Positions 28,566 through 62,258 of a DNA stretch of 64,000 nt are shown piece after piece. The position numbers were made by a program, and so were the translations under genes. Source of the stretch: an uncultured Gemmatimonadota bacterium (lineage in GTDB: Bacteria > Gemmatimonadota > Gemmatimonadetes > Gemmatimonadales > Gemmatimonadaceae); NCBI GenBank assembly GCA_902826615.1, contig CADEFN010000001.1, positions 682,001 through 746,000 on the forward strand, given 5' to 3'. The notes under the pieces are model-generated. The model did not search any database. It was given only the letters and a program-made list of their open reading frames with translations, and had not been told where the DNA came from. How positions within the stretch are numbered: position 1 is the first letter of the stretch; each line of letters begins with the position of its first letter.

Positions 28566-28592
28566 GACACTGGACCCTGACTTTCGTCAGGG
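28566..28592 (+). repeat. Single REP-like unit
   Basis: Foot GACACTGGA followed by the hairpin CCCTGACTTTCGTCAGGG (six-bp stem, CTTTCG loop). The same foot-plus-hairpin layout recurs at 59909-60180 and 62189-62258. It lies between the convergent ends of the secreted-protein gene and the TonB receptor gene. Confidence 0.8.
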
Positions 28593-28610
28593 CGCATCGC
28601 TACGCTCCGC

Positions 28611-28673
28611 GTCTGCCGTCTGTAGTCTGCCGTCTGCCGTCTGCCGTCTACCGTCTACCGTCTGCCATCTACC
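28611..28673. repeat. Heptanucleotide tandem repeat
   Basis: Nine consecutive 7-base units with consensus GTCTGCC and variants GTCTACC, GTCTGTA and ATCTACC. The array overlaps the stop codon of the STN TonB receptor gene (stop at 28669-28671). The unit length is not a multiple of three, so copy-number change would shift the gene's end only if it crossed the stop. Confidence 0.9.
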
Positions 28674-31176
28674 TCGCCACCCGCAACCCCACCGTCGCCG
28701 TACGCCCGGCACCGATCTGCAAGTTGTCCCGCTCGTTGCGCTGGATGTTGGTGAGGTTGTCCACACGCACATACCACTCGGCGAACCGTGACATGGTGTA
28801 GCTCGCGCCGACAAAAGGCCGCGTGAGTGAGGGATACTTGATCCAGTAGTCGCGCAGCAGAGGGCGTGTTGTCGCCGCACTCAGCTCACCGGTGTAGTAC
28901 GAGACCCAGTCGTAACCTGTCCAGCCGCCGATGTAGCTCACCCCCAGCGTGCCACGAATACGCCGTCGCTCACTGGAGAGCGAGAAGGTGCCTGACGATG
29001 TCGGGACTTCAGGAACACGGTCGCCGACACTCAGATCACCCGTGTAGGTGCTCGCCAATCCCCGGACACGGCTGTTGGTGCGCGAGTAGACCACGTCGGC
29101 GCGAACCACACCCGCCCGAGCGCTTCCCTCGAGTTCGATCCCGGTGTTGGCAATACGTCCCACATTCTGGTACTGAATGGTGCGCACCCGTTCACGCGGA
29201 TTGGTGACCACCTGCTGAATGAGTCCTTCGGCATTCTGCGAATAGGCCGTGAGCGACACATTCACCCGGTCGCCCAGATAGACCTCGATCCCCGCTTCCG
29301 TCCCCGACTGCACCTCGGGCTCGAGTTCGGGGTTCTCCAGCTGCCGGAAGCTCAGCGTGCGGATTGCCTGGCGCATCGAGGGCGCAGGGGGACGAATGCC
29401 CTTGCCATAGGCCGCACGCACTTTCACCGTCGCCTCGCCCGCATCCTGTGTGACCGCCAGCCCCAGCATCGGCGAGTAGGCCGTCTTCACATTCTGCCCG
29501 AAGTTGGAGTTCTTCTCCCCCCGAAGTCCGGCGCTGACAAAGACCGTGTTCGCGAGGTCGAGCTTGAGCTGCCCGAAGATCCCGCTGTTGTGCACGGTTT
29601 CGCTGTAGAGCGAGGTGAGACCGGTGCCATTGCCCACGAGTTGCGCCCGCAGGCCAAGCCGGTCGCGCAAGAAGGTCGAGCCTTCGGCGCCTAACGTGGC
29701 CGTGAGTGAGGCATCGGTGCCCGACACCACACGGGCCGCCATGCTGTAGCGGATGGATGACTTGCTCGCCGCTTCACGCGTGGCGCCCAGCAGCGCGTCG
29801 GCCACGGTTGCGGGCTCACGCTGGGGCGGGATGGCACCATTGTGACGATCGAGGCCGAGGACCAGCGTTTGACGCCACCAACTACTCGGCTGGAAATCAG
29901 CTGTGACGCCGTAGGTCTCGTTTGCGATTCGTTGCTCGGCAAGCAATGGGCGCACACTCGCGCGTGCGGCGTCAGTCACCTGGCTGAAGAGCGGGTTGTC
30001 GGGTGCCGTGAAGCGGATGTCTGCGTAGCGGAAGGTGGTCTCCAGTCGCAGTGGTCCGGCCAGGGTGCGACCTCCGCCAAACACCCCCCGTGAACCTGCC
30101 GAGCCGCCGGTGACAACGGGCCCGACATCTTCCCACGTTCCACCAATCCCCAGCGATGTTGTGCCGCCACCAGTAAAGGCCATCGCCGAGTGACGCTGCA
30201 TGGAGCTGGCGCTGGTGGTGTAGCGGCTTTCCTGACGGCCAATGGTCGCGGTGCCATCGAATTGCGGACGCCAGTTGGCCGACGGCGATCCCTTCCGGGT
30301 GACCACCTGCACCACCCCCGAGATCGCATCGGAGCCGTAGAGCGCCGATCCCTGCGGACCACGAATGACTTCGATCCGGTCGATGCTGTAGGGATCGATG
30401 GCAAAGAGGAGATAGGGACTCGCCAGCTCGACCCCATCCACGTACGTCTTGAGATAGTTGGACGAGAAGGAACTCGACCCTCGCACCGCCCCCACCTGCG
30501 CGAGGGGACCGGCAATCCCCAGATCCCACGACACAACACCGGGAATGCCGGTTCGAAACACCTGGCTCATGTTCGTGAGCCCGAGCTGTGTGAGTTGTCC
30601 CTGTGATCGCACGGTTACGGCGCTCGCCAGCCCGCGTTCGGCCGCTCCACTCACCGGTGTGCCCATCACCAGCACACGATCCATGATCTGCGGGCGCGTG
30701 GTGCGGAGGAGGGGGACGGCAATGGTTGGCACGCTGTCGGCACTCGCTGCGGTCGCGCGGGTCTTGGGCCAGGGCGACCGCACGACAATCACGTAGCCCG
30801 AGGGCGTCGAGACGATGTCGAGATCGGTGTCACGCAGTACTTCGCGAAAGGCGTCGCCTAACGCAATGCGATCGCGCGACATGGTGACCCGCACATCAGA
30901 CGGAATGAGGTCATTGGAATACGCCAGGCGCGCAGACCCGAGTGAGGCGACCACACGCAACGCTACCTCCACCGGCGCATCCTGCAGTCGCACCGAGATC
31001 AGCCGCAGCATCACGTCGGATGTGCGGGACGGGCGAGGCGCGATGCTGTCAGCGAGGGCGAGCTGCCGCGCTTGCGGGAGAGTCTGTGCCGCGGCGCTGG
31101 CGGGCACGGCCGCCAGGAAACTTCCCAGGAGGACCAGCGCGCGCGACACGATTCGCGCGCGTCGCGGGCTCCTCAC
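28669..31176 (-). CDS. TonB-dependent receptor with STN (signalling) domain
   Basis: 835 residues. After a signal peptide (VLLGSFLAAVPASAAAQ) comes a secretin/TonB short N-terminal (STN) domain at about residues 55-125 (RLQDAPVEVALRVVASLG, VLRDTDLDIVSTPSGYVIVV). The plug follows at about 160-290 (NYLKTYVDGVELASPYL, IDRIEVIRGPQGSALYGSDA), then the barrel. STN domains pass ligand binding to FecR-type anti-sigma factors; the next gene upstream encodes one and overlaps this start by four bases. The layout therefore fits FecA-like transducing receptors. The ligand (siderophore, haem or other) is not visible. The 3' end lies inside the heptanucleotide repeat. Confidence 0.9.
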   Translation of the reverse strand: MRSPRRARIVSRALVLLGSFLAAVPASAAAQTLPQARQLALADSIAPRPSRTSDVMLRLISVRLQDAPVEVALRVVASLGSARLAYSNDLIPSDVRVTMSRDRIALGDAFREVLRDTDLDIVSTPSGYVIVVRSPWPKTRATAASADSVPTIAVPLLRTTRPQIMDRVLVMGTPVSGAAERGLASAVTVRSQGQLTQLGLTNMSQVFRTGIPGVVSWDLGIAGPLAQVGAVRGSSSFSSNYLKTYVDGVELASPYLLFAIDPYSIDRIEVIRGPQGSALYGSDAISGVVQVVTRKGSPSANWRPQFDGTATIGRQESRYTTSASSMQRHSAMAFTGGGTTSLGIGGTWEDVGPVVTGGSAGSRGVFGGGRTLAGPLRLETTFRYADIRFTAPDNPLFSQVTDAARASVRPLLAEQRIANETYGVTADFQPSSWWRQTLVLGLDRHNGAIPPQREPATVADALLGATREAASKSSIRYSMAARVVSGTDASLTATLGAEGSTFLRDRLGLRAQLVGNGTGLTSLYSETVHNSGIFGQLKLDLANTVFVSAGLRGEKNSNFGQNVKTAYSPMLGLAVTQDAGEATVKVRAAYGKGIRPPAPSMRQAIRTLSFRQLENPELEPEVQSGTEAGIEVYLGDRVNVSLTAYSQNAEGLIQQVVTNPRERVRTIQYQNVGRIANTGIELEGSARAGVVRADVVYSRTNSRVRGLASTYTGDLSVGDRVPEVPTSSGTFSLSSERRRIRGTLGVSYIGGWTGYDWVSYYTGELSAATTRPLLRDYWIKYPSLTRPFVGASYTMSRFAEWYVRVDNLTNIQRNERDNLQIGAGRTATVGLRVAR

Positions 31177-56570: not shown

Positions 56571-56805
56571 AGCAGACACCGCGGACCCTGACCGTACGCG
56601 CTGCAACTGTGCTGTGGCCTCGCACCGGAGCCGGGTGGCGAGTGGTCCATGAGCAGTCATTCTAGTCTCTCGCCCCACCGCGCTTACAACACGTTGTTGC
56701 CGGCAAACGCAGTTGACTACGGATGGCGCACGCTGCGTGCACTCTTTGCTGATAGCGTTGGCGTCAGGGCATAAAACGTTAGGTGTTGACACGACCGAGA
56801 ACACC

Positions 56806-57531
56806 ATGATTGATGGAGAACCCTCGAAATCAGCCATCGATAGACTCGGTGAGGCGCTGTGCGATGCGCCCTACGAGGCGACGTCACTCCGGCGCCTGGA
56901 CGCTCATCGGCGTTCATTCGAGCCGGCTTATGCCTTCGTTGTCAGCGTCCTTCGTGAGCCGCTCGGATTGTCGCCGACTGGGCGCCCAGCGAAGTCGACG
57001 CCGTCCATCATCGACAAGCTTCGGCGCGAGACGACACGCCTGAGTCAAATGCAGGACATCGCCGGATGTCGTGTCGTCGTGGCCGACGCAATAGCGCAGG
57101 ATCAGGTGGTTGGCGCAATTGTGCACGCCTTCGATCGCTCCACCGTCGTGGACCGGCGAAAGATGCCAAGCCACGGGTACCGGGCGGTACACATAATAGC
57201 TTTCGTAGATAGTCGGCCGGTGGAAATCCAGGTCCGGACCGAACTGCAGCACGCTTGGGCAGAGCTCTCGGAGAAGCTGTCCGACCGATTCGGGCCATCT
57301 ATCAAGTATGGCGATGGCACTGATGGTATCCTCAAGCCCCTGCGCGCGTGGTCAGAGCAGGTTGGGGCGATCGAGGACCTTGAGCGGGACATCCTGGCCA
57401 ACACGGTGTATCATTCGACGACCGGAGGCCCCGAAGCGACGGACTCGCAGGAGGACCTTTTGGCCGCCCTCCGGAGTGCGAAGCGGAACATGCGCGCTGC
57501 GCTGGACGATCTGACTCGAAGCCTTTCCTGA
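56806..57531 (+). CDS. RelA/SpoT-domain alarmone synthetase-like protein (small alarmone synthetase)
   Basis: 241 residues from ATG 56806. The synthetase domain spans about residues 55-175: K63-S...K71 in AKSTPSIIDKLRRET, catalytic D84 in MQDIAGCRVVV, the G-loop SHGYRAVHI (Y125), and E140 in VEIQVRTELQHAWAE. All hallmark residues for pyrophosphate transfer are present, and no hydrolase or regulatory (TGS/ACT) domains are. It could make (p)ppGpp, or modify other targets as toxic small alarmone synthetases do. It starts 23 bases after a CGTTAGGT octamer. A small gene follows seven bases downstream and may encode a partner or antitoxin; that is inference. Confidence 0.85.
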   Translation: MIDGEPSKSAIDRLGEALCDAPYEATSLRRLDAHRRSFEPAYAFVVSVLREPLGLSPTGRPAKSTPSIIDKLRRETTRLSQMQDIAGCRVVVADAIAQDQVVGAIVHAFDRSTVVDRRKMPSHGYRAVHIIAFVDSRPVEIQVRTELQHAWAELSEKLSDRFGPSIKYGDGTDGILKPLRAWSEQVGAIEDLERDILANTVYHSTTGGPEATDSQEDLLAALRSAKRNMRAALDDLTRSLS

Positions 57532-57537
57532 ACCAGC

Positions 57538-57801
57538 ATGCTATTCCTAATTCAGTATGACAGATCGCGAGGGCAGATTGTGTCCCTCGTCGAATTCGCC
57601 GAGAGCGACCGCGAAAAGGCGAGTCAGGAGCGCTTGACCCTGGAGCTCGCCCTCGGGGACCACTTGGCACGGCAAGAGGTTGTACTCTTGGAGGCCGATT
57701 CCGAAGAAGCGCTGCGCCGAACGCACCGCAGGTTCTTCGAAGAATGGATGGCGCTGATGGAGACGCCAGCGCAAGGAGCTCCGATAGTTGACGAACGGTG
57801 A
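57538..57801 (+). CDS. Small partner protein of the alarmone synthetase, unknown function
   Basis: 87 residues. It begins MLFLIQYDRSRGQIVSLVEF, a beta-hairpin, followed by charged helices (SDREKASQERLTLELALG and SEEALRRTHRRFFEEWMALM). No family was recognised. It lies seven bases after the alarmone synthetase stop and is almost surely co-transcribed. Small size, acidic/charged composition and position fit an antitoxin or a regulator of the enzyme, but nothing in the sequence proves it. A strong hairpin follows its stop. Confidence 0.65.
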   Translation: MLFLIQYDRSRGQIVSLVEFAESDREKASQERLTLELALGDHLARQEVVLLEADSEEALRRTHRRFFEEWMALMETPAQGAPIVDER

Positions 57802-59879: not shown

Positions 59880-59908
59880 GGAGGGGAAAGGTAGCAGCGC
59901 GCCGATCG

Positions 59909-60180
59909 TTCCCCGGACTTGATCCGGGGTCCAGCGTCTTGGCGCGCTGCGGACGACACTGGGCCCTGACTTTCGTCAGGGAGCCACGTTCCCCGGACTT
60001 GATCCGGGGTCCAGCGTCTTGGCGCGCTGCGGACGACACTGGGCCCTGACTTTCGTCAGGGAGCCACGTTCCCCGGACTTGATCCGGGGTCCAGCGTCTT
60101 GGCGCACTGCGGACGACACTGGGCCCTGACTTTCGTCAGGGAGCCACGTTCCCGGACTGGATCCGGGGTCCAGCGTCTTG
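59909..60180. repeat. REP-like palindrome array, 80-bp tandem units
   Basis: Three full 80-bp units (from 59909, 59989 and 60069) and a partial fourth from 60149. Each unit holds two hairpins in opposite orientation: CCCCGGACTTGATCCGGGG with the foot TCCAGCGTC (complement GACGCTGGA), and foot GACACTGGG with CCCTGACTTTCGTCAGGG. That gives seven foot-plus-hairpin units in total; the last has point changes. The units are almost identical, so the expansion is recent. The array lies between the alpha/beta hydrolase start and the GIY-YIG gene's stop, six bases away. Confidence 0.92.
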
Positions 60181-60185
60181 CGGAT

Positions 60186-60479
60186 CTAGAACGTGGGCGT
60201 CTCCGTGCTCAGGTCGCGCCAGTAAGGGTTGTGCGTCTCGATCAACTCGAGCTTCCAGCGACGATGCCAGTTCTTAAGCCGTCGCTCGCGCGTGCGCGCC
60301 TCCAGCAGACTCTCAAACACTTCGACATGCACGCACCGGAAGGTATGGTAGCGCGATGAGAACGACTTTACCGCGGCGCTCCGATGTTGTTCGAGGCGCG
60401 GTACGAGCTGAGTCGTCACCCCGATGTATAGCGTGCCGTTGCGCTTGCTGGCGAAGATGTAGACGTAGGCCTGCGACAT
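60186..60479 (-). CDS. GIY-YIG nuclease (UPF0213/YhbQ-like), adjacent to REP-like array
   Basis: 97 residues from ATG 60479; an in-frame GTG at 60488 would add three. Single GIY-YIG domain: YVYIFASKRNGTLYIGVT carries the two tyrosine motifs, then the catalytic arginine in LVPRLEQHR, the metal-binding glutamate in EARTRERRLKNW, and the C-terminal KLELIETHNPYWRDL typical of this subfamily. The key residues are intact. Its 3' end lies six bases from a REP-like array whose other copies lie at 28566 and 62189. In the REP/RAYT systems a single-strand transposase sits among REPs; here a different nuclease does. The function of the subfamily in cells is not established. Confidence 0.88.
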   Translation of the reverse strand: MSQAYVYIFASKRNGTLYIGVTTQLVPRLEQHRSAAVKSFSSRYHTFRCVHVEVFESLLEARTRERRLKNWHRRWKLELIETHNPYWRDLSTETPTF

Positions 60480-60620
60480 GCCGGCCACGATACCCTGCGT
60501 CAGCCCTGATCACCGTACCACAATATTTCCGATCGTGCCAATTCCTTGCGAGGGCACTGCCGGGGACCTTGCAGCACCACGGTTCAGAGGGCACGATGGA
60601 GTGTCCTCTTCCCGACAGCC

Positions 60621-62188: not shown

Positions 62189-62258
62189 GACACTGGGCCC
62201 TGACTTTCGTCAGGGAACGTTGCGCCACGCTCCCCGGCGAAAGCCGGGGCCCAGTGTC
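62189..62258. repeat. Inverted pair of REP-like units
   Basis: Two foot-plus-hairpin units face each other: GACACTGGG with CCCTGACTTTCGTCAGGG (62198-62215), and, on the opposite strand, the same foot with a hairpin reading CCCCGGCGAAAGCCGGGG on the plus strand (62232-62249). The outer 12-bp arms are perfect inverted repeats. Both hairpins have the loop CTTTCG in unit orientation but different stems, so the stems co-vary. The pair fills the space between two convergent genes. Confidence 0.9.

Follow-up and report, generated by a model that had tools for sequence, protein, structure and literature searches.

Does a small nuclease gene that adjoins an array of palindromes belong with those palindromes, and if so, in what kind of system? 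The question was raised by a first-pass annotation of the window (the whole 64,000-nucleotide stretch of DNA analysed here), which described seven foot-plus-hairpin units ending near the stop codon of an intact, compact GIY-YIG gene. It likened the layout to that of REP/RAYT systems and suggested a distinct, nuclease-driven repeat system. We therefore characterized the gene and its units, and compared them with homologous loci in other bacteria.

The nuclease gene and its repeat units

The gene (60186-60479, minus strand) encodes a stand-alone GIY-YIG nuclease of 97 aa (PF01541, E = 1.4e-15). It starts with an ATG at 60479, with an alternative GTG at 60488, and its stop codon occupies 60186-60188. 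No other compact stand-alone GIY-YIG gene was found in the 5.9-Mb assembly, as the other two GIY-YIG matches lie inside frames of 634 and 406 aa. Residues Y7, Y18, G20, R28, H32, E65 and N84 were kept in an alignment of 19 homologues; these positions match the GIY-YIG active site of the superfamily. An AF2 model based on four sequences was of moderate confidence (pLDDT 81.6), and the solved folds nearest to it were UPF0213 protein BH0048 (PDB 1zg2) and Slx1. The nuclease has its fold in common with Slx1 and with UPF0213 proteins (1zg2, 1ywl), and the latter are of a similar size class, but sequence similarity to either is remote (phmmer 2.1e-05 at best). A phage homologue was searched for and none was found.

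The array (59907-60180) consists of an 80-bp dimer of two inverted units in 3.4 tandem copies (Tandem Repeats Finder, 98% match), and repeat and foot matches resolve it into seven units. Every unit combines a conserved foot of the pattern GACRCTGGR with a hairpin. Minus-strand feet accompany the hairpin CCCCGGA-CTTGA-TCCGGGG: unit 1 (59909-59938) has the foot GACGCTGGA and the stem CCCCGGA/TCCGGGG, units 3 (59989-60018) and 5 (60069-60098) are copies of it, and unit 7 (60149-60177), a copy with slight changes, adjoins the nuclease stop codon. These alternate with plus-strand units, namely unit 2 (59955-59982), with the foot GACACTGGG and the hairpin CCCTGAC-TTTC-GTCAGGG, and its copies, units 4 (60035-60062) and 6 (60115-60142). 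As first described, the array ends close to the gene: the gap to the stop codon is 5-8 bases, depending on whether the foot end (60177) or the repeat margin (60180) is used. Units flank the gene on its 3' side only. Because the 80-bp dimer is repeated 3.4 times at 98% match, the array is best explained by one or two insertions followed by tandem duplication, and the same structure rules out seven independent unit insertions.

Exactly 10 copies of the foot GACRCTGGRCCC lie in the window, in four minus and three plus units within 59927-60177 and at 28566, 62189 and 62247, which bears out the earlier observation that further units, at 28566 and 62189, lie apart from the gene. The first of these is a single plus-strand unit (28566-28593) with the foot GACACTGGA and the hairpin CCCTGAC-TTTC-GTCAGGG. 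The other two feet belong to an inverted pair (62189-62258) in which the feet point outward and which contains a third hairpin, CCCCGGC-TTTC-GCCGGGG, at 62229-62258. As single-stranded DNA, this pair was predicted to fold into one long imperfect hairpin (-26.8 kcal/mol, z -5.7). Short tandem heptamer-like repeats (CCGTCTGCCGTCTACCGTCT) were also noted at 28620-28675, directly downstream of the unit at 28566.

Across the 5.9-Mb genome we counted 33 exact feet, compared with 2 matches to a reversed control pattern. A sizeable minority of the foot matches lacked a clean short hairpin, some having an enlarged loop, so that we estimate the true units at approximately 20-30. Inverted pairs were found at genome coordinates 110394/110454, 696761/696818 and 744189/744247, and single units were equally common. 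At three loci (L010 near 1526, L031 near 1501 and L033 near 1501) the usual foot goes with a hairpin that has an enlarged loop of ~20-25 nt (GCGGTCGCT..CGCTCCCTTG); such units may be composite or contain a nested insertion.

Within the genus, two genomes with the gene had 33 and 17 feet, versus 0 and 1 in two genomes without it. The 17 feet, in congener G298, are not evidence of cognate pairing because the gene of that genome is flanked on both sides by a different unit, TGTC-ACCCCGGCGTAGGCCGGGG-CCCA. Congener G299 had 45 feet, and the nuclease gene was undetected in this fragmented draft. One of its contigs (C858; L138, 869-1058) carries a head-to-tail array of the window's foot with the CCCCGGC-TTTC-GCCGGGG stem at a spacing of ~37 bp.

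Recurrence of the pairing in other genomes

For 52 homologous loci, drawn from the window's phylum and from alpha-, beta- and gammaproteobacteria, the 330-bp flanks were set against control positions taken from other parts of the stretches that contain the loci. The two flanks had an identical repeat of 14 nt or more, in the same or the opposite orientation, at 36 of the 52 loci but at only 132 of 9652 control positions (1.4%); the p-value of this test overstates the evidence because the loci are interrelated and control positions overlap, and it is the difference in rate that counts. GIY-YIG genes of this family thus lie closer to repeat units than random positions do. The window locus is not among the 36, since its units sit on one side only. 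A scan of contigs with the single nuclease protein as query yielded only three loci.

The flank repeat varies in sequence by lineage. Many genomes of the window's phylum carry (C/T)GTC-A(T/C)CCTGAGCG...GAAGGAT, while the repeat at Neisseria, Photobacterium and Aeromonas loci is CGTC-ATTCCCGCG...CGGGAAT. Other CGTC-tagged stems accompany the gene in Shinella, Rhizobium CIAT894, Azospirillum, Novosphingobium and Sphingobium, and two rhizobial loci have CTC-tagged stems. Palindromes, mostly tagged CGTC or GACG, were present near the gene at all 10 plasmid-collection loci examined. Together with the Azospirillum and Sphingobium loci, these confirmed the suggestion, offered with the original description, of similar pairings in other GC-rich bacteria. 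The pairing of nuclease and repeat is genuine and recurs across phyla.

Gene and repeat also co-occurred at the level of whole genomes. Nuclease homologues were detected in 37 of 298 genomes of the phylum, and GTCAYCCTGAGCG was present at 10 or more copies in 19 of these 37 genomes versus 4 of the 261 without the gene (Fisher 2.6e-16, uncorrected for shared ancestry). Two of the four gene-less exceptions carry a weaker homologue.

Closely related strains differed in whether the gene and its palindromes were present. Azospirillum lipoferum 4B has, between sufB and sufC, a cassette of ~0.5 kb in which the gene is bordered by two palindromes on each side; in three relatives with flanks 95-97% identical, the gene and such palindromes are absent from this site. 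On plasmid AZO_p3 (L067, 2855-3471), the cassette breaks an operon for iron-sulfur assembly at the junction of sufB and sufC. In Sphingobium TomMM7A and TomTYG46, the interval between fnrL and a response regulator holds a cassette made up of a palindrome, the nuclease gene and an inverted palindrome. At the same site TomTYG64 has a single palindrome tagged on both ends, CGTCACCCCGGGTCAAGCCCGGGGTGACG, which matches exactly the product predicted if the two flanking palindromes were fused at their shared arms; in TomTYG74 this palindrome is slightly changed, and TomTYG72 and TomTYG65 have neither palindrome nor cassette. The double-tagged CGTC palindromes of TomTYG74 (L154) and TomTYG64 (L155) occupy columns 80-115 of alignment A5. 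Such a palindrome could be either the scar of a loss or the target before a gain. Read from these aligned sites, the comparisons show that gene and repeats come and go together in relatives carrying other homologues. At the window locus, the corresponding congener genes are only 72-84% identical and the site is not preserved, which leaves no empty site to compare.

Probable kinship with Ssn and with CGTC-tagged REPs

The nuclease is 53-54% identical, over 88-91% of the protein, to a gene of Neisseria gonorrhoeae located among dRS3-type palindromes, which we take to be ssn. Neisseria Ssn is reported (Chenal et al., Nature Communications 2025) to be a site-specific GIY-YIG nuclease that cuts single-stranded DNA at the NTS repeat, and reportedly has thousands of homologues paired with sequences of their own. 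The window's gene resembles this family in being small and stand-alone with intact catalytic residues, in its homology to the Neisseria enzyme (the identity given above and a shared 96/90 clade), and in having a cognate repeat both beside it and dispersed in the genome. The enzymes are alike in size (~100 aa), and in both systems many repeat copies lie away from the gene; in contrast to Ssn/NTS, the window's units have a different hairpin and tag, are low in copy number in the genome (~20-30 units) and belong to a host of another phylum. We regard the assignment to Ssn as a lead. PLSDB lists a Neisseria gonorrhoeae replicon, NZ_CP119140.1 (L064), as a plasmid; a length of 2.17 Mb suggests a mislabelled chromosome.

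In the protein tree, the nuclease paired with that of G090, a genome of the host's own family (96/92), and both fell inside a proteobacteria-dominated clade (96/90). This placement suggests that the gene was acquired by lateral transfer, in a tree of which many forks are unresolved because it has only 89 columns. Repeat type clustered on the tree, with 21 changes versus 27.5 when shuffled (0 of 200 shuffles as low, all groups taken together), a clustering to which host relatedness contributes.

CGTC-tagged REPs consist of a tag, a stem of 8-9 bp, a loop of 4-5 nt and a CCA tail, are arranged mainly as inverted dimers, and include Neisseria dRS3 (PMC3733652). Di Nocera et al. (2013) reported that they "apparently lack a dedicated transposase" (PMC3733652). 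Written in the same orientation, the window's unit is CGTT-[hairpin]-CCAGYGTC. It has in common with these REPs a short stem-loop, inverted pairs (though no more often than singles) and the CCA tail, which is present as TCCAGCGTC or CCCAGTGTC in all units used, and its loop is of 4 or 5 nt. It differs from them in the tag directly before the stem, which is CGTT or CGCT rather than CGTC, TGTC or CCTC (the unit of congener G298 has TGTC), in a 7-bp stem whose first pair is C-G and which lacks the leading A-T pair, and in a longer tail, CCAGYGTC. An identical stem-loop, CCCCGGACTTGATCCGGGG, is a canonical CGTC unit in Sphingomonadaceae plasmids. The window's unit resembles the CGTC REP superfamily and probably derives from it, though it lies outside the strict tag definition. 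Homologues in Neisseria, Azospirillum, Sphingobium, Shinella and Aeromonas are located among CGTC-tagged REPs. Whereas the window's units have a gene neighbour, the 2013 survey of CGTC REPs reported none and left open which enzyme handles them (PMC3733652); in the comparative data, these repeats are linked to a single family of nucleases, both in Pseudomonadota and in the phylum of the window.

The layout noted at the outset is indeed that of REP/RAYT systems, in which one enzyme gene (a Y1 transposase) lies beside palindromes (GTAG REPs) and more palindromes are dispersed. Here, however, the enzyme is a GIY-YIG nuclease, and the 99%-complete host assembly had no match to the Y1 (RAYT-type) transposase family PF01797, while control genomes did. 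The palindrome-flanked Y1 HUH transposase gene that defines a RAYT or REPtron is thus absent from the host, and a RAYT-driven origin of the units is ruled out. The proposal of a distinct nuclease-driven system held in part: the pairing is real and separate from RAYTs, but its distinctness is weakened by the identity to the Neisseria gene among dRS3-type palindromes. If that gene is Ssn with its NTS, the general nuclease-repeat pairing would already be published, which is probably the case. A limited search of the literature on GIY-YIG enzymes together with REPs, Ssn or NTS turned up no relevant work.

Explanations for the pairing

On sequence comparison, we think it rather probable that the gene product is a small GIY-YIG endonuclease of the Ssn type whose cognate sites are the palindromes, the latter being a divergent branch of the CGTC-tagged REPs. 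The nuclease would recognize the hairpin, folded in single-stranded DNA, together with its tag and tail, whether on the lagging strand or during transformation or repair, and would nick beside it. Nicking may modulate recombination or DNA uptake at the repeat sites, and units, or the gene between two units, might occasionally be copied or lost; the local array would later have been enlarged by ordinary tandem duplication of the 80-bp dimer. The host genome encodes a ComEC homologue, which is compatible with a role in DNA uptake and gives it no support. Counted against an Ssn-type enzyme were the one-sided units of the window, the CGTT/CGCT tag in place of CGTC, the 16 of 52 homologous loci that lacked a shared flank repeat, and the repeat-rich genomes G241, G272 and G299, in which the gene was undetected. 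Should cleavage of the Ssn type hold, every pair of gene and repeat would be a candidate sequence-specific cutter of single-stranded DNA with a predicted target.

RAYTs are thought to disperse GTAG REPs, and a GIY-YIG nuclease might act in the same manner, nicking palindromes so that repair or replication copies the intervening DNA and spreads both the REP units and its own REP-flanked gene. The sufB-sufC cassette missing from the Azospirillum relatives, the Sphingobium site with one double-tagged palindrome in two plasmids and nothing in two others, the unit copies away from the gene and the absence of a RAYT all favour such a mobile REPtron. Co-mobility does not, however, prove that the enzyme is the driver: homologous recombination or slippage between palindromes would produce identical alleles, target-site duplications were not observed, and the array at the window locus grew through tandem duplication. 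We consider active dispersal by the nuclease possible but doubtful. The broader proposal, that CGTC-type REPs have their missing dedicated enzymes in the GIY-YIG nucleases and that these drive a second kind of REPtron, independent of RAYTs, across phyla, gaining and losing REP-flanked cassettes with the double-tagged palindrome as scar or target, is put forward tentatively and seems to us unlikely on balance. Mobility could be tested directly at the polymorphic Sphingobium and Azospirillum sites, using harmless laboratory strains.

REPs are frequent insertion sites in many genomes, and CGTC-type REPs could have been generic hot spots at which a general repair-type GIY-YIG gene was captured without specific recognition; the fold kinship with structure-specific enzymes such as Slx1 agrees with this. 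The dependence of repeat abundance on the gene in 298 genomes (19/37 vs 4/261) and the clustering of repeat type on the protein tree (21 vs 27.5 changes), even with the contribution of host relatedness, speak against a passive neighbour and make capture improbable. That a common small gene simply happens to adjoin a repeat array is hardly credible. The host has a single such locus, but there 5-8 bases separate the one stand-alone GIY-YIG gene of a 5.9-Mb genome from the biggest cluster of a low-copy repeat, and unrelated bacteria show the same pattern. Chance proximity is ruled out by the comparative tests, that is, flank repeats and co-occurrence in the phylum.

Elsewhere in the window, 56713-57801 encodes a stand-alone RelA/SpoT-domain protein (PF04607, 3.1e-15), followed after 7 bp by an 87-aa ORF with no Pfam match; the two are possibly a small alarmone synthetase and its partner gene.
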